35,160 nt of DNA from a virus, in the IMG/VR virus record IMGVR_UViG_3300005577_000063, positions 1 through 35,160 of that record. The stretch is one strand, 5' to 3'. Each line of letters begins with the position of its first letter. Position 1 is the first letter of the stretch. Positions 3,144 through 33,462 of the stretch are shown here, one piece after another. Under the pieces are notes generated by a model that was not told where the DNA came from, did not search any database, and saw only the letters and a list, made by a program, of their open reading frames with translations. Made by a program: the position numbers and the translations under genes.

Positions 3144-4481
3144 CTAGAAGGTCGGAGTCTTGAGGCCAGTACCACCGATGATTGACGTGCCCTTGACGTA
3201 CCGGGCGAACGTGAACGCGAAGTACCCGTAGGCGTAGATCTTCACATTCAAGTTATCCGACAAGGACGACATATCGACGGTAACCGTGGGAGCCCCAACC
3301 TCGAATAGAAGCTGGTCTTCCCTGCGGGTCACGATGATTGTGTCCTGGTCGGTCGACACCCCAAGGTTCACCGGGATGTTCGCGTCGACCACGACGGGGA
3401 GACCCTGGATCAATCCAACCAGGCCCGCCGGGATCGTTGCATCACCAATCGACATCGCGTTCCAGGCACTCTGGGCAGCGGGTGCATCTGGCACAACCAG
3501 CGGACGCCCTGACGTATCAACCGCACCGATCAGGGAACCCCAGCGTCGGGGAGCCATCACGATGAGGCTTGGGGCCGCGAAACGGTTGGTCCAGATTTGC
3601 TGCACAGCATCTGCGATCTTCGGATACAGGGTCGCAGCCGTCGGTGTCGCCTGTGTGTAGGTGACGGAGTTGGTGCCCGACAGGACCGTGATGCCGTTGG
3701 TGGCCTGCGTGAGCAGCTGTGTGTCCAGCTGTTTCGCATAGTCCGCCGCGAGATCCTGGCCGATGACGGTATCCGTAGCGGGGTCAGAACGCTCCAGCAA
3801 CTGCCTGGACACGATCTGCTTACCGGCAACAGTGTTCACCGTGAACGCCAGGTAGTCGGTGACTGCCGAGCCATCCTGGATCGTCGTGGTTTCAGTAGCC
3901 TGTACCGCCGTCACAGTGCCCGTGGTAACTCGGGGCACGTTGAACGTCATACCCGTCTCGGGGAGAGCCCGCGGCCCGAGCGCATCGGCGAAGGGCCGAG
4001 ACGACCGAGCGAACTGCGCGAGCTCGTCGAGGAGGTACTGAGGCGGAACGAGACCGGGACCACCAGTACCGGTGGTAATCGCACCACGCTTCTCAGATGC
4101 GACTTCCCGAGCATGTCGAGCAAGCCGCGTCTCGGCGGCAATGTCACCCATGTGCTTGCGGAAGAGGTCACCGAAGAAGCTCCTGGCGGTTCCATCGGCC
4201 TCTCGAACGCCCTTGGCGTATGTGCGGGGCTCTTCCCCAACCTTGACCTCGGCACGCGGAACATCGTTGAGCGCCTTGTTCATGCGCTCGATCCTGGCGA
4301 TATCGCCGGCCAGTTTCGCTACCTCAGCCTCCTTCTCTGAAAACTTGGATTCCAGGTCGTCCCGCGTCTCCTTGTTCGAGTCCGGCCCGAGGCCCTGGAG
4401 GGCCGCATTGTGCCGCTCGAACGCAAGCTGGGCGTCAGCGAGATCGGCCTGGAGCTCCTCAAGCGTCTTGATTCCGCTCAT
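3144..4481 (-). CDS. Major capsid protein, HK97 fold
   Basis: A 445-residue HK97-type capsid subunit. Residues 1-75 are heptad-like and charged (LEELQADLADAQ...), as for the N-terminal scaffolding (delta) domain. A linker at about 128-141 (ASEKRGAITTGTGG) is a likely maturation-protease cleavage zone. The rest has the mixed beta content typical of the family, including the TVTAVQATE/TTTIQDGSAV region and the C-terminal AYGYFAFTFARYVKG. It follows the prohead protease with a 23-base overlap, the normal portal-protease-capsid order. The start ATG at 4481 has AGGGA upstream. Confidence 0.95.
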   Translation of the reverse strand: MSGIKTLEELQADLADAQLAFERHNAALQGLGPDSNKETRDDLESKFSEKEAEVAKLAGDIARIERMNKALNDVPRAEVKVGEEPRTYAKGVREADGTARSFFGDLFRKHMGDIAAETRLARHAREVASEKRGAITTGTGGPGLVPPQYLLDELAQFARSSRPFADALGPRALPETGMTFNVPRVTTGTVTAVQATETTTIQDGSAVTDYLAFTVNTVAGKQIVSRQLLERSDPATDTVIGQDLAADYAKQLDTQLLTQATNGITVLSGTNSVTYTQATPTAATLYPKIADAVQQIWTNRFAAPSLIVMAPRRWGSLIGAVDTSGRPLVVPDAPAAQSAWNAMSIGDATIPAGLVGLIQGLPVVVDANIPVNLGVSTDQDTIIVTRREDQLLFEVGAPTVTVDMSSLSDNLNVKIYAYGYFAFTFARYVKGTSIIGGTGLKTPTF

Positions 4482-13142: not shown

Positions 13143-13446
13143 TGCGATCCCTCTTTTCATGAGCCCGGGCTGCTAGGGCATCGAACCTCTCGTCACCGAT
13201 CTCCGACCGCCAGAAGGCCTCTTTCTCCCAAGGATGGGAGTCTAGGAATTGGTGGCAGCCATAACATAGGGCTAGGGCGTTGTCAGGATCGAATCTCGTT
13301 GCCCCGGTGCGTCTGGTGAAGTGATGAGCGGAGTGGAGCCCCCCGGGCTTGGGTTCGGAATGACACCGCTTGCATCTGTAACCGTCGCGCTTCCTAATCT
13401 GGTCTGAGAATCGAGCATCGGCGGCGGTGCGCTTGATGCCACTCAT
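13129..13446 (-). CDS. HNH-type zinc nuclease-like protein
   Basis: A 105-residue protein with CKRCHSEP (zinc), then LHSAHHFTRRTG, FDPDNALALCYGCHQFLDSHP: the His-His, Asn and Cys-x2-Cys-His layout of beta-beta-alpha metal nucleases used in phage recombination and DNA processing (NinG-like or free-standing HNH). ATG at 13446 overlaps the stop of the cytosine methyltransferase by 4 bases, so the two are coupled. Homing, recombination or junction processing are all possible. Confidence 0.78.
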   Translation of the reverse strand: MSGIKRTAADARFSDQIRKRDGYRCKRCHSEPKPGGLHSAHHFTRRTGATRFDPDNALALCYGCHQFLDSHPWEKEAFWRSEIGDERFDALAARAHEKRDRSGAS

Positions 13447-14081
13447 GCCACCCTCGCTAGGTGTTCTAGCAACTGCTCTCCGACAAACTGGCTATAGGCG
13501 GGGGGAATCGCTTCGGCGATCTCATCGCCCGTCATCCAGTCGATGCCCATGGCTGCTTTCCACCTTGGATCTGTCATCCCGGTAATCCCATCGCGCCGCT
13601 TGCTCTTAGTGTTGTATGGATTCAGCGGATGGGGCACCAGATCGTGGCGGCAGGGCGGGGACATGATCAGGGGCACGGTCTCGAAATAGCGGTGCCGCCA
13701 TATCGGCAGACCGAATGAGGAACCACACAGCATCCCCCCCGTGAGGGGGGCGCCCTTCACGTTCTCGATCACATAGGGCAGGCCCGTTGCCTTGAGCAGG
13801 GCGCGAATCGGTTCTATCAACCTGTCCGATGGGCGAGCTCGATGCCTGAGATGTGGGCTGTACGCCTGGCACGGCGGTGAGGCGTGGATGGCGTCGTATC
13901 GACCATCCCTCCAACGCAACCTCATCAACTCCAGCGCATCTGCCATCACGAACTCGAATGGGTAGTGAGGCTGCGGCTTGATATCCACGCCGACCACATC
14001 GAACCCTGCTCGGTGATAGCCCATAGCTGCACCGCCGGCACCGCAGAACAGATCAAGCAGGAGCGGCCTAACGGCCGTCAT
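13443..14081 (-). CDS. DNA (cytosine-5) methyltransferase
   Basis: 212 residues from ATG 14081, which overlaps the preceding microprotein stop as ATGA and has GGAAGG upstream. Motif I is DLFCGAGGAAMGYHRAGF, the catalytic motif IV is SPPCQAYS, motif VI is ENVKGAP, and a late IPPAYSQFVGEQL resembles motif X. It transfers methyl from SAM to C5 of cytosine. It is small, with little target-recognition domain, as common in phage enzymes. No partner restriction enzyme is seen, so protection against host restriction or epigenetic control is likelier than a restriction system. Confidence 0.9.
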   Translation of the reverse strand: MTAVRPLLLDLFCGAGGAAMGYHRAGFDVVGVDIKPQPHYPFEFVMADALELMRLRWRDGRYDAIHASPPCQAYSPHLRHRARPSDRLIEPIRALLKATGLPYVIENVKGAPLTGGMLCGSSFGLPIWRHRYFETVPLIMSPPCRHDLVPHPLNPYNTKSKRRDGITGMTDPRWKAAMGIDWMTGDEIAEAIPPAYSQFVGEQLLEHLARVA

Positions 14082-14170
14082 CGTAGGGCCTTCCGTCTGC
14101 GCCGCCGTGCTAAGACATTGTGTGGCCTCCAGCGCCAGTTCAGCCACCACGTGTACCAGGTCTGGGTCAC
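14078..14170 (-). CDS. Tryptophan/arginine-rich microprotein, 30 aa
   Basis: From GTG 14170 to TGA at 14078: a 30-residue peptide with a WYTWWLNWRWRPHN core and a run of five Arg near the C-terminus. It fits exactly between its neighbours, overlapping the upstream stop as GTGA and the methyltransferase start as ATGA, the signature of a translated link in this operon. Five Trp and about nine basic residues give a cationic amphipathic peptide that could bind membranes or nucleic acids. No family known to me. Confidence 0.6.
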   Translation of the reverse strand: MTQTWYTWWLNWRWRPHNVLARRRRRKALR

Positions 14171-20013: not shown

Positions 20014-20664
20014 TCAGCGCCCCGAGCGCTCTATCTCGGCATTGGCGAGCGCAACCAACTCCCGCCCTATGATTCCGTGCACGTTATGAGCTATCGTGCC
20101 CGGGGCACTCTCAAATCCGATATTGATATGAGAGTCACCCGCAATAGGGAACACCTTGAACTTCACGCTTTGGCCGGGTCGCCAGATGACAACGACGCTA
20201 GCGAAGAACCCCGAAGCCCGATAAGGCCCATCCGTAAGGAAGCGCACTCGCCCCCGGATGTATCGAACCTCGGCATGTCCGACAACATCATCGTGCCACC
20301 ATGCGAGGTCGGTAGAAGCGGGCAGCAGACCAACTACTAATGCCCCACGCTCTGCTGATTCACGGGCCTTCCGGGTCCATGCATAAACCTCGCGCCCATA
20401 TGGCGGGTTCATAAACACTCGTTCGTCGTACCAATCCTGTTCGAGGCCGTTATCCTGTTCGGTGTAGTAGTTAGCAACACCGAGCGGGTTATCCGCGGTT
20501 GTACATGGGTCTAGCGTGAACTGGAACTCCTCGTTCAGGGGGTCAAACACCTCGGGTGGAGTGCGCCACTCCCGACCCTTACCGTTGTAGCGCCCGTTGT
20601 TCTTAGCTTTCATGCCACCGAGTACCGCAGGGTTGTCACTCGCCCCTATCGTCCGGCGATTCAC
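20014..20664 (-). CDS. DNA N6-adenine methyltransferase (phage Dam-like)
   Basis: 216 residues matching the phage Dam family (PF05869 type): EWRTPPEVFDPLNEEFQFTLDPCT, the NPPYGR catalytic motif at about residues 87-92, LVVGLLPASTDLAWWHDDV, and VRYIRGRVRF. It methylates adenine N6 with SAM. A sensible role is protection from host restriction. ATG 20664 overlaps the upstream stop by 4 bases. Confidence 0.9.
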   Translation of the reverse strand: MNRRTIGASDNPAVLGGMKAKNNGRYNGKGREWRTPPEVFDPLNEEFQFTLDPCTTADNPLGVANYYTEQDNGLEQDWYDERVFMNPPYGREVYAWTRKARESAERGALVVGLLPASTDLAWWHDDVVGHAEVRYIRGRVRFLTDGPYRASGFFASVVVIWRPGQSVKFKVFPIAGDSHINIGFESAPGTIAHNVHGIIGRELVALANAEIERSGR

Positions 20665-23882: not shown

Positions 23883-24599
23883 TTAGAAGGGCTTCTCGGC
23901 GAACGTCCAGTTATCCCAGATGTTGAGCCGCCGGAAGCTCTCGATGGTCAGCCTGGCCGTGCCGTTCGCTAGCCATCCTGAACCCCAGGAGTTCTCGACC
24001 CGGACGAAGGGTGGAGCCCCGTTATCGGGGGCCATGTCCACGCCGGTCAGAGCGAGATCGTGGTAGCCGACGTGCTCCGAGTCCAGGTTGACCTTGATCC
24101 ACTGATTGCCATAGGCCTTAGAGAGCCGTCCATCGTTGTAGTACATCGAGCCATACCAAGGGACGGCAATCGTGACTGGGCCGTAGGTGAGGAGGCAGGT
24201 GATGATGTCATCAACCTGGAGCACCTTCCAATAGGAGTCGATCAGCCCCCACTCGAGCAGCTTGGCGCAGGCATCGCGGGGATGCATCCCTTGCTTATAG
24301 GTGGTGTCCCCTGACGCCTCGAGGTAGAGCCTACGGGCGAACTGATGGGCTCCCTCCTCGGTCTGGAACTCCGCATAGGTATCGTGTTCGCTGGCCCCGG
24401 CCAGCAGGACGTTCGTAGTCGCGTGACCGACACATGTTCCCTCGTTGCCCTGGTTGATGCGGAAGTCCGGGCCGACCATCGTGTAGAACTTCCGGTCGAT
24501 GGTGGATGCGTTTAGGGCCACCGATAGCGGTGGGGCGAATCGGTAGTCACGCGGGTCGTATCGGTCGGGCTTGGCTCCGAGTGCATAGGGTTGTGGCAT
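23883..24599 (-). CDS. Papain-like (C1) cysteine peptidase, virion-associated?
   Basis: 238 residues. INQGNEGTCVGHATTNVLL contains the Gln and catalytic Cys of the papain family; GYHDLALTGVD supplies the His and VRVENSWGSGWLANG the Asn-Ser-Trp-Gly active-site motif; together a complete C1 triad. No signal peptide. ATG 24599 follows the TAG of the fibre-like gene with GGAGG. Papain-like domains are unusual among phage tail or lysis genes; it may cut peptides in the host envelope or process a virion protein. Confidence 0.85.
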   Translation of the reverse strand: MPQPYALGAKPDRYDPRDYRFAPPLSVALNASTIDRKFYTMVGPDFRINQGNEGTCVGHATTNVLLAGASEHDTYAEFQTEEGAHQFARRLYLEASGDTTYKQGMHPRDACAKLLEWGLIDSYWKVLQVDDIITCLLTYGPVTIAVPWYGSMYYNDGRLSKAYGNQWIKVNLDSEHVGYHDLALTGVDMAPDNGAPPFVRVENSWGSGWLANGTARLTIESFRRLNIWDNWTFAEKPF

Positions 24600-30087: not shown

Positions 30088-31656
30088 CTAAATCTGCTGT
30101 CCCGGGTGACCACCAGAACCTACAGGCTGCATCCCCGGCTTGCTGGGGTCGAAGTCCACGTATTTGTAGTGAATCTCAACGGTGTGCCTAGTGGAACCCT
30201 TATCCAGCTTGTCAAGGGCCGTGATCATCTTGTCTTGCGAGGTTCGGGCATTATCTAGCTCGGTTGTGGAATCCTTCCACGCTTGCTGGGCCTTATGTTG
30301 CTGCGTCTCGGTGAGGTTGGCGAACCCAATCAACCATTCGGGACCCTGTTCCGACAGGAAGGCGATGTATTTGGGGTTGACCCAATCCTCCTTGGCAATC
30401 TCTGCCATGGCCTTGGCAAGCTGGCGTGCCTCTCGTTCCATGACATTCGTGGCGTGAAGGAACTCCTGACGAGTGATCTTCGTTTGTTCTGCATTCTCAT
30501 CGAGGCTCAGGGTCAGGTCTGCGAACTCCAGCGTGGTCTTCTTGGCATCCTTGCCCAACCCAGCAACGGCGAGTGAGGCCTGGAACGCCTGGCCCCGGAA
30601 GTTGCCCAGCCCCTTGCCGCCTTGGCCGATCTCCTCGCCAAAAGCATTGAGAGCTTCGCTGCCATCTCCACTGAGATCAACGAAGTGCCCCAGGACCGGG
30701 ATCGTATCGATGAGTCCATCTGCAAACCGGGACAGCCTGCTTCCGGCACCATTGAAATCCTCACCAACCTGAACGATTGGTAGGAACTGCATAGCGAAGG
30801 CAACCTTCTCAAGAAGGGGTACGAGGCCGGCCAGGGTCTCCACCAAGCCCTGCACCGCCGGGAGCAATGCCGTGCCGATCTTCGCAGCAGCATCCTCGAG
30901 TTCGGCCCTCAGAACACGGATCTGGTTCGGGAGCGATTCCCCGACAGTCCTAGCGAAGTCTCCCTGCGCCTTCGCCGTGTCATCCATGATGATGTTGTAG
31001 CGAGCCTGGATCTTCTGAGCATCGGTGAGTTCCTCGCCAACTTTGGCGATGCCCGATCTGTATGCCTCAGCCTCGACTCGAGCGGCAGATAGGAATACCC
31101 CGACCTCGCGTAATGGGCGGGCCTGACCAGCCAAACCGGATTGGAGCTTGTCCAGTGCTTCAGTGGGATCGATGTTGTTGAACGAGGCTAGGTCGGAGGC
31201 TAATGTGACCAGCGATATCGACATCTTCGCTGTGGCACTTTCAGCCAAGCCCGCGGCATCGAGGATCTGGCCGAAGCTACCGGCAGCAGTAAGGGCTGCT
31301 GTCTCAGACACACCCAGGGATTCGGCAGTTGTCTCGGAGAACGCTATGACGGTATCTGCCGAGTCCTCGAACACAACCCTAGTCTTATTGAGTTGCTCAT
31401 TGAGGTCGGATGCCGCACTAATGGATTTGGCGACACCAACCACAACGGCGGCGCCCACCCCCAGCATCGCGGCATTAGCGAAACCCGAGAACTTAGAGAA
31501 GCTGGTCCCCATTGCCCCAGTGCTGGCGGCGGTCTCACCCTGAGCTGCCCGGAGTTCGGCCTGGTACTTCGCTGTTGAGAGTTCCAGGCTGACGATGGCC
31601 TTGCCGATTACCCCACCAACACCGGCCGCACCAAGGAGGGATCCTAAGTCAGCCAT
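30088..31656 (-). CDS. Tape measure protein
   Basis: 522 residues, Ala/Gly-rich and helical with hydrophobic segments (NAAMLGVGAAVVVGVAK; LVPLLEKVAFAMQFLPIV). NLNEQLNKTRVVFEDSAD-type and FGQILDAAGLAESATAKMS motifs are typical of the family. At about 0.15 nm per residue it would set a tail of roughly 80 nm, short for a siphophage. It overlaps the chaperone frame by 8 bases. Confidence 0.92.
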   Translation of the reverse strand: MADLGSLLGAAGVGGVIGKAIVSLELSTAKYQAELRAAQGETAASTGAMGTSFSKFSGFANAAMLGVGAAVVVGVAKSISAASDLNEQLNKTRVVFEDSADTVIAFSETTAESLGVSETAALTAAGSFGQILDAAGLAESATAKMSISLVTLASDLASFNNIDPTEALDKLQSGLAGQARPLREVGVFLSAARVEAEAYRSGIAKVGEELTDAQKIQARYNIIMDDTAKAQGDFARTVGESLPNQIRVLRAELEDAAAKIGTALLPAVQGLVETLAGLVPLLEKVAFAMQFLPIVQVGEDFNGAGSRLSRFADGLIDTIPVLGHFVDLSGDGSEALNAFGEEIGQGGKGLGNFRGQAFQASLAVAGLGKDAKKTTLEFADLTLSLDENAEQTKITRQEFLHATNVMEREARQLAKAMAEIAKEDWVNPKYIAFLSEQGPEWLIGFANLTETQQHKAQQAWKDSTTELDNARTSQDKMITALDKLDKGSTRHTVEIHYKYVDFDPSKPGMQPVGSGGHPGQQI

Positions 31657-31894
31657 TCATGGCCTTCCTGACCTTCTCCCCACCCAGGCGGGCGAGCTCG
31701 CCGGGATCATCGGCCACGGCTTCGTCCTCTCGGTGAAGTGTGATTACGAATGCGGCCCGCAGGTTGTGCGCGAGCACGTCGTCCTCGAGGAAGGCCGCTG
31801 GGTCGCGCCCCCAATGTTGCTCGACACGGGCAAAGGTCTTGCCAGCATCTGAAGATGCAAAGTCGGCGAGCACCTTCATTGAGGGCTCGCCGGT
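31649..31894 (-). CDS. Tail assembly chaperone, downstream (frameshifted) part
   Basis: Reads into MKVLADFASSDAGKTFARVEQHWG from the -1 frame. An ATG at 31879 overlaps the first chaperone's stop (ATGA), but continuity of sense upstream (VNPFTGEPSMKV) shows the frame is entered by slipping at 31894-31900. In siphophages this gives a longer minor chaperone, analogous to lambda gpGT, needed for tape measure assembly. Confidence 0.85.
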   Translation of the reverse strand, partial: TGEPSMKVLADFASSDAGKTFARVEQHWGRDPAAFLEDDVLAHNLRAAFVITLHREDEAVADDPGELARLGGEKVRKAMNG

Positions 31895-32259
31895 AAAGGG
31901 GTTGACCGCTGCCCATACGCCAGGAGCGCGTCATAGTCGTCTTGATCGAGTTCGGACACGGCCTCTCTAGTCATCTCGACCGGTTCGCCATCAATAGCCA
32001 CTAGCGTCTGCCGAACGATCTCGTCATTGACTCGTGCCCCAGCCGCAGCGTCTTCCATCTGCATTTCCGGGCTTAGAACAGGGGGGCTATCTCCATTGCT
32101 CTCGGCAAGTGCCTTCACATGCTCAAGAATCGGCATGGGAACCCGACCGGCAATGACACAATCCCGGATATGAGGAAGCCTGATAGTCACGTTCATGCCC
32201 GAGGGCAGCGTTACATCGAACCGCTTGCGGATGCGCTCGAGGGTTTCCTCGGCGTTCAT
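31876..32259 (-). CDS. Tail assembly chaperone, first part
   Basis: 127 residues, ATG 32259 with GGAAGGAG upstream. TLPSGMNVTIRLPHIRDCVIAGRVPMPILEHV resembles gpG-like tail chaperones. The product is non-structural and binds the tape measure during assembly. A -1 slip near its 3' end extends it. Confidence 0.85.
   Translation of the reverse strand: MNAEETLERIRKRFDVTLPSGMNVTIRLPHIRDCVIAGRVPMPILEHVKALAESNGDSPPVLSPEMQMEDAAAGARVNDEIVRQTLVAIDGEPVEMTREAVSELDQDDYDALLAYGQRSTPLPASPQ
31894..31900 (-). other. Programmed -1 frameshift site (C CCT TTA)
   Basis: Zero-frame codons ACC CCT TTA contain the canonical heptamer C_CCT_TTA. A -1 slip gives CCC TTT then ACC GGC GAG, the frame of the downstream chaperone. 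Product: 122 plus 81 residues, 203 in all. Its position just before the tape measure is that of the conserved G-GT frameshift in siphophages. Confidence 0.88.
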
Positions 32260-32279
32260 GGGGCTCCTTCCTGCCCGAG

Positions 32280-32299
32280 AATGTGACGGGAATCACATT
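32280..32299. promoter_or_regulatory. CRP-type operator palindrome
   Basis: AATGTGA (32280-32286), six bases, TCACATT (32293-32299): a perfect 7-bp inverted repeat that contains TGTGA-N6-TCACA, the binding consensus of CRP/FNR-family regulators including actinobacterial Crp/GlxR. It overlaps the start of the -35 box of the plus-strand gene and is centred about 42-45 bases before the expected transcription start, as at class II CRP-activated promoters. No CRP gene is in the phage, so a host protein would act. Confidence 0.65.
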
Positions 32300-32327
32300 G
32301 CGGTCGAGCGGGGATCGGGAGTAGGGT
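32298..32327 (+). promoter_or_regulatory. Promoter of the antisense membrane-protein gene
   Basis: TTGCGG (32298-32303), 18-base spacer, TAGGGT (32322-32327; TANNNT). The -35 is poor, which suits dependence on an activator at the overlapping palindrome. Expected start near 32331-32334, then a short leader with GGGAGG. Confidence 0.5.
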
Positions 32328-32354
32328 CAGGGCATCAGAAATGGGAGGTCAAAT

Positions 32355-32465
32355 ATGAACCAGATGGACGTAAGGCCCAGCGAGATCATGATCCCGTGGT
32401 GGGCACTTGCCCTGGCCCTGCTAGTCGTGGGCCTTACCGGCCTGGCGCTGGGGCTTAGTAGGTAG
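32355..32465 (+). CDS. Small single-span membrane protein, antisense moron
   Basis: ATG 32355 with GGGAGG six bases upstream; 36 residues ending at TAG 32465. MNQMDVRPSEIMIPWW is followed by a 20-residue hydrophobic helix (ALALALLVVGLTGLALGL) and a short basic end. It lies on the strand opposite to all tail genes, in a 195-base gap, overlaps the tail-tube gene's end by 11 bases, and has its own promoter and CRP-type site: the layout of a moron. It may alter host membrane permissiveness to other phages. Confidence 0.78.
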   Translation: MNQMDVRPSEIMIPWWALALALLVVGLTGLALGLSR

Positions 32466-33462
32466 TCGAGACCGCGTTGATGACTACGGGCTTTACATGG
32501 TCGCCTGAGGCGGGCTTGGTGATGACGCCGTTGATCGTGACGGTTAGCGGGCTCGCGGCGGGGTCAGGCACGGGGGGTTCGGCCATCAGGATCACCGAGT
32601 CCATGGTGAACGAGGCCGAGTGGGTACCGGTAATCGAGTGAACCAGGTTGAACTTCACCGAACCCTTCACCAATGTGCTTGAGGGGGTTGACCCAGCCAC
32701 CGCACCGAAGAAGGTAGCGCGGTAGGCCTCATGGTCATCCATCAGCAGGGTCATCGAGACCGTGGGCTCGATCTTCGACAGAGCCAGGAAGTTGACTGAC
32801 ACCGAGTCGGCCGTTGCCACGGGGGCCACGGGCCTGGGGACCACCAGGGACAAGCTCTGGATGTTCGTCTCGGTTACTGGCGTGCCTGAGTCCACTTCGT
32901 ACTGAAGCACTGCACCCGAGAAGGTGAAATAGCCATCCGTGCCGATCACCTGGGGGGTGGAGTTCGTGTAGGAGGCGATGGTCGGGCGCTTTCCGACGAA
33001 CTTAGCCCCCACCTTCGCGGGGCCGCCGGTACCATCACCCGAGATGGAGAACTCAGACATCAGGCCGGCCTCAAACGTCTCCTCGACTGCACCACCGAGT
33101 AGATCGGTGTTGTAGGTCGTGAACCAGTTGTTCGTGGCACCACCCAGACCGGACATCGTGTGGGTGAATGGGCCTGTACCCGTCTTCGTGTCCGTCGGCC
33201 ATAGGCCCGTCAGGATCCGCGGCAATGGGGCACCGAACGCCGGGACAACAACATCGGCCTCCCAGTGTTCATCCCCCTGCTTGTAGGGGTCGGCACCCAT
33301 GGCCGTGTTGTCGGTGACCTCCACCCGGGTCGTGGTCTGCACCGGCATGGAACGCCCAGAGTAGACAGGCAGACCGTATTCCTCGGTGGTGTTCACCGTC
33401 GCCTCGTTGGTCTGCTTGCTGATGCCCCAGATGAAATTGTTGGACGGGGTTGTAAGGCCCAT
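32455..33462 (-). CDS. Major tail (tube) protein
   Basis: 335 residues. MGLTTPSNNFIWGISKQTNE, IPR-like beta-sandwich with FEAGLMSEFSISGDGTGGPAKVGAKFVGKRP and a C-terminal Ig-like extension (SPLTVTINGVITKPASGDHVKPVVINAVSTTY). Position between tail completion and chaperone genes is that of the tube protein. C-terminal Ig-like domains often decorate the tube surface. Confidence 0.87.
   Translation of the reverse strand: MGLTTPSNNFIWGISKQTNEATVNTTEEYGLPVYSGRSMPVQTTTRVEVTDNTAMGADPYKQGDEHWEADVVVPAFGAPLPRILTGLWPTDTKTGTGPFTHTMSGLGGATNNWFTTYNTDLLGGAVEETFEAGLMSEFSISGDGTGGPAKVGAKFVGKRPTIASYTNSTPQVIGTDGYFTFSGAVLQYEVDSGTPVTETNIQSLSLVVPRPVAPVATADSVSVNFLALSKIEPTVSMTLLMDDHEAYRATFFGAVAGSTPSSTLVKGSVKFNLVHSITGTHSASFTMDSVILMAEPPVPDPAASPLTVTINGVITKPASGDHVKPVVINAVSTTY

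Follow-up and report, generated by a model that had tools for sequence, protein, structure and literature searches.

Morons in tail operons can encode membrane proteins for superinfection exclusion, as is the case for HK97 gp15, with which TP-J34 Ltp and Tuc2009 Sie2009 may be compared (PMC10883804). HK97 gp15 and similar proteins block the entry of DNA, and phages escape them through changes in the tape-measure gene or the tube gene (PMC10883804). The SAS and ESAS of Cluster K mycobacteriophages (PMC3203893) and of Microbacterium Cluster EF phages (PMC7302621) are sequence motifs present in many copies (PMC3203893, PMC7302621), and in Cluster K a role in translation initiation has been proposed for them (PMC3203893). 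Here, we report on a 35,160-bp virus record, referred to below as the window. A gap of 195 bp between a putative tail-tube gene and the first tail-chaperone ORF holds both a perfect palindrome and an ORF on the plus strand, while all genes flanking the gap are on the minus strand. On balance, the locus would seem to combine an RNA hairpin in the chaperone leader with an antisense moron encoding a microprotein, the two sharing the gap.

Results

The tail genes around the gap

The tail genes that surround the gap are, in the order in which the tail strand is read:

32455-33462, minus strand: putative major tail (tube) protein, next to the gap on its upstream side as the tail strand is read, assigned by gene order and without family match
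31876-32259, minus strand: first ORF of the tail-assembly chaperone, assigned by its place between tail tube and tape measure and by a conserved frameshift site, without family match
31649-31879, minus strand: second chaperone ORF, which follows the first
30088-31656, minus strand: tape measure, with PHROG matches

Relatives of the tail-tube protein were found in IMG/VR at 77-98% identity. Named phages gave no DNA match to the region and no match to the protein sequences of tail tube, first chaperone and microprotein, bacterial genomes held no relative of the tail-tube protein or the microprotein, and no chaperone relatives were found outside the contigs already known. Near its end, the first chaperone ORF contains the slippery sequence C CCT TTA, a canonical site for -1 frameshifting (31876-31910, minus strand). 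A GGCGAGC/GCTCGCC hairpin follows it in the window and spans the start of the second chaperone ORF. In the relatives the site reads C CCT TTA or C CCA AAA. Elsewhere in the window, genes for a glycosyltransferase and a nucleotide-sugar epimerase adjoin the head genes (82-2302), two DNA methyltransferase genes were seen, one cytosine-type and one Dam-type (13443-14150 and 20014-20664), and a papain-family peptidase-like protein is encoded downstream of the tail genes (23883-24599).

The leader of the chaperone gene

Four elements of the leader are needed for the comparison:

32273-32309, minus strand: predicted RNA hairpin of two stems, 5' leader of the chaperone gene
32280-32299, no strand assigned: perfect palindrome AATGTGA-N6-TCACATT, AATGTGACGGGAATCACATT, 0 mismatches, identical to stem P3 of the hairpin and with compensatory changes in relatives
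32264-32272, minus strand: Shine-Dalgarno of the chaperone gene, AGGAAGGAG, directly 3' of the hairpin and invariant in the four AT-type leaders
32310-32321, minus strand: CUCCCGAUCCCC, which can pair with the Shine-Dalgarno as an outer helix (P1) and overlaps the spacer of the plus-strand promoter

Seven leaders that all reach the chaperone start were compared, namely those of the window, L002, L003, L004, L005, L006 and L009, four of which are closely related; L007 is cut off inside the hairpin element and was left out. In the window, P2 is formed by GCUCG and CGGGC (32309-32305 with 32277-32273) next to a 5-nt bulge, and P3 by AAUGUG(A) and (U)CACAUU, which enclose the loop UUCCCG. The 5-bp P2 lies outside the palindrome and recurs in all seven leaders, with a bulge of 3-5 nt on the 5' side. 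The arms of P3 change in sequence from AATGTG/CACATT in the window and L002 to AAGGTG/CACCTT in L005 and L006, GCCGTG/CACGGC in L003, GGCCTG/CAGGCC in L004 and GCGCCG/CGGTGC in L009.

When these leaders were aligned by hand, according to structure, every one of the 77 base-pair cells was paired on the minus strand (72 Watson-Crick, five G.U and no A.C), and sliding the partner by 1-3 columns left 19-31 paired cells of 56-77. Two to four standard pair types occur at nine of the eleven pair positions. The two-stem template, which was fixed post hoc, was matched by 0.25-2% of dinucleotide-shuffled leaders as against 7/7 real ones; with G.U pairs allowed it fitted the minus strand in all seven leaders, and it fitted in four of seven both as a strict DNA dyad and on the plus strand. 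The folding energies of single leaders were only mildly better than those of shuffled sequences (z from -0.06 to -2.4), and in several leaders the plus strand folds equally well. The hairpin is present also in L003 and L004, both without the antisense ORF. A structured cis-regulatory RNA leader is recognised by stems that covary and keep a constant position ahead of a gene, and such stems were found here. From the pattern of paired changes, the palindrome region very probably forms an RNA hairpin, with covariation in its stems, within the chaperone leader.

A known RNA family was discarded, as no Rfam match was obtained with E up to 1 over positions 31500-33000. Model R1 found one strong copy in the window and at most one in each relative, and a repeated element as well as membership in SAS/ESAS were rejected. 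Of 67 stretches matched when DNA was scanned for the pattern of the leader, two are in known relatives (L048 and L079) and the rest were taken as chance.

The hairpin stops one or two bases short of the purine-rich ribosome site and lies 13-17 nt from the chaperone ATG in all seven leaders. In the MFE folds of the window, L002 and L005 the outer helix pairs this ribosome site with CUCCCGAUCC, and in L003 and L009 such a helix is not clear. Pairing of the pyrimidine loop with the purine ribosome site, as seen by eye, is trivial in terms of composition and is not claimed. The hairpin probably exerts translational or mRNA-processing control of the chaperone. In the simplest mechanism, it would occlude the ribosome site or pair with it, so that chaperone and tape measure are translated less, or at another time, than the abundant tail-tube protein; as the main alternative, it would be an mRNA processing site and set the processed end.

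A different role, as the end of the mRNA after the tail-tube gene rather than in control of translation, be it as a weak terminator, an RNase site or a 3' stabiliser, is rather unlikely. The position of the hairpin between a presumably abundant tail tube and a presumably scarce chaperone and tape measure would suit such a role, as would its occurrence wherever the gap is complete, in seven cases of seven. However, the distance that is kept is the one to the chaperone ATG, while that to the stop of the tube gene is widely variable, and there is no T-tract. The terminator scan called no intrinsic terminator at the gap, where the stem is followed by the purine-rich Shine-Dalgarno instead of a T run, and an intrinsic terminator was rejected on these grounds.

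The candidate antisense promoter and the regulator readings of the palindrome

32298-32327, plus strand: candidate promoter consisting of TTGCGG (32298-32303), an 18-bp spacer and TAGGGT (32322-32327), recurring in relatives

The initial annotation had placed a promoter for the antisense ORF at this point. Its weak -35 box, TTGCGG, does overlap the end of the palindrome, and thereby the hairpin, a -10 box is present, and the boxes recur; a generic promoter scan called nothing in this region. By eye, TTGCG[GT]-N18-TANNGT is found upstream of the antisense ORF in the window, L002, L005 and L007, and L006 has the variant TTGCAT-N16-TAGAGT, with the spacing likewise counted by eye. In L002 and L007 the ATG follows six bases after the -10 box, and we infer that their microprotein mRNA would be leaderless. 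In every one of the relatives with an AT-rich stem, the stem supplies part of the -35 box, and because of this overlap a role of the DNA is not fully separable from that of the RNA.

In another reading, the pairing would reflect the two-fold symmetry of a DNA site, the dyad serving as the operator at which a repressor or activator encoded by the phage controls the antisense promoter. A co-evolving dimeric regulator could likewise account for arms that change symmetrically, and the dyad abuts the -35 box in five relatives. Yet L003 and L004, in which the antisense ORF is missing, have it just as far from the chaperone start, the stem sequence varies freely, and restriction of the two-stem template to Watson-Crick pairs reduces the fit from the 7/7 obtained with G.U on the tail strand to 4/7. 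We regard such an operator as improbable.

Less probable still, and in our judgement highly unlikely, is control by host CRP/GlxR, as proposed in the initial annotation. The palindrome would then be a site near position -44 from which the regulator turns on the antisense promoter, and with it the microprotein gene, when cAMP is high. The match to the consensus is exact, and its centre, about 44 bp before the inferred start, is near the position of a class II activator. The palindrome had also been described as unlikely by chance. This is true of a motif fixed beforehand, as about 3e-5 exact matches to the 14 bases would then be expected per window, but the motif was named only once it had been seen, and its rarity is therefore weak support by itself. 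About 0.8 near matches with up to three mismatches are expected in the window, and it contains five perfect 7-N6-7 inverted repeats irrespective of sequence, so that a consensus-like repeat requires comparative support.

The comparison provides none. Half-site matches across the seven leaders are 10, 9, 7, 7, 6, 6 and 5 of 10, the window having 10, L002 nine and both L005 (GGTGC/TCACC) and L006 (GGTGT/TCACC) seven. One half-site base is already lost (TGTGC) in the nearest relative, whose tube protein is 98% identical. The CRP reading is not supported, as matches fall to as low as 5/10 in relatives, and the half-sites are not kept in L002, L005 and L006 though promoter-like boxes and an antisense ORF remain. 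The arms change in pairs, also in phages without the antisense ORF, and the microprotein genes of L111 and L113 are located in another gap with no such motif by eye. Drift of the arms among close relatives with conserved tail genes is, moreover, the outcome that the initial annotation itself had named as speaking against its proposal. The palindrome is best read as the upper stem of the RNA hairpin and not as a host CRP switch.

The antisense microprotein

32355-32465, plus strand: 36-aa microprotein, MNQMDVRPSEIMIPWWALALALLVVGLTGLALGLSR, with one predicted membrane span, supported by five homologues, dN/dS and one hydrophobic span

The ORF is preceded by the Shine-Dalgarno GGGAGG (32343-32348), and its stop runs into the 3' terminus of the tail-tube gene. 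It had been described from the window as a single-span membrane protein of 36 residues opposite the tail genes, and the description was accurate. L002 and L007 have homologues at the identical antisense site. Those of L111 and L113 are again encoded opposite the tail genes, but directly upstream of the gene for the tape measure, and show no evident Shine-Dalgarno before the start. The five sequences share V-R-x-x-E-x-x-I-P-x-W-A-x-x-L-A-L-L-x-V-G-x-x-G-L-x-x-G-L, and all five contain a single 19-residue span with a mean hydropathy above 2, which predicts a membrane protein. Among the homologues, dN/dS was 0.11-0.48 in the nine finite pairs, and most nucleotide differences are at third positions in most pairs. 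On these comparisons the microprotein is almost certainly a genuine gene under purifying selection. Only 36 codons in length and without a match in Pfam or phage records, the ORF might be suspected to be a chance reading frame, but this is hardly credible: dN/dS is below 0.5 in every finite pair of the five homologues, third-position differences dominate in most of the pairs, and the ORF occurs in two lineages whose tail proteins are very different.

The identity to the window copy is 76% for the microprotein of L111 and 67% for that of L113, as opposed to 26% for the tube and 33% (partial) for the tape measure of L113. The gene has thus been transferred from lineage to lineage, or else it is under much stronger constraint than the genes next to it. 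It is absent from L003 and L004. The contigs of L111 and L113 contain tyrosine integrases, and no integrase was found in the window. L005, L006 and L009 have other small hydrophobic proteins, also antisense, in the equivalent gap; those of L006 and L009 are related mutually at 47% and have a weak resemblance to DUF4190, below the Pfam cut-off. Microbacterium phage Eden (L132) has an annotated antisense hypothetical gene between chaperone and tape measure (3471-3704, minus strand), which is not used as support because its 77-aa product has no evident membrane span.

Discussion

The plus-strand ORF resembles a moron in two regards. Its distribution is patchy and apparently horizontally shared, as seen in the identity contrast of L111 and L113 and in the lack of the gene in L003 and L004, and its product is a predicted membrane protein. 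As for an independent unit, the ORF is antisense, promoter-like boxes recur and the content of the gap varies among relatives; no terminator was found. The ORF would be an antisense moron served by a candidate promoter of its own, the -35 box of which lies partly on the hairpin DNA. Its expression would not depend on the tail operon and would probably take place in lysogens. A link to lysogeny may exist: the contigs of the two more distant homologues contain a tyrosine integrase, but none was found in the window. The microprotein would probably act at the cell membrane, where it would most likely serve to exclude superinfecting phages whose tape-measure proteins are similar. This function is suggested tentatively, by analogy to HK97 gp15 and with no claim to membership.

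A more far-reaching view, which we consider quite unlikely, would make the same stretch of DNA a two-strand switch. As RNA it would restrain the translation of chaperone and tape measure, and as DNA it would carry the -35 box of an antisense promoter used in lysogens, the product of which would block phages with related tape measures. Antisense transcription would run on into the tail-tube gene and help to silence it.

If the favoured reading of hairpin and moron is true, a very short and probably unannotated family of phage membrane proteins is encoded antisense in the tail operons of phages represented by metagenomes only, and it constitutes a candidate superinfection-exclusion module that is directly testable. 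A structured RNA would likewise help to explain how very unequal amounts of tail proteins are made from one operon.

The locus resembles three known systems in part. To the operators of CRP/GlxR (TGTGA-N6-TCACA) the window copy is a perfect consensus match, but the relatives have lost this match while their arms still pair. If the hairpin reading is true, the locus shows how an exact regulator consensus can come about within an RNA stem. With the SAS/ESAS of Cluster K it has in common an inverted repeat immediately upstream of the ribosome site, whereas the hairpin is single-copy, conserved in structure and not in sequence, and confined to one gene. Exclusion morons such as HK97 gp15 differ in that the microprotein is encoded opposite the tail strand, has a length of 33-37 aa only and is likened to them by analogy, without known sequence relation. 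What is shared with these morons is a small membrane protein, here a predicted one, encoded in a putatively independent unit beside tail and tape-measure genes, and, for two of the microprotein homologues, a contig bearing an integrase.
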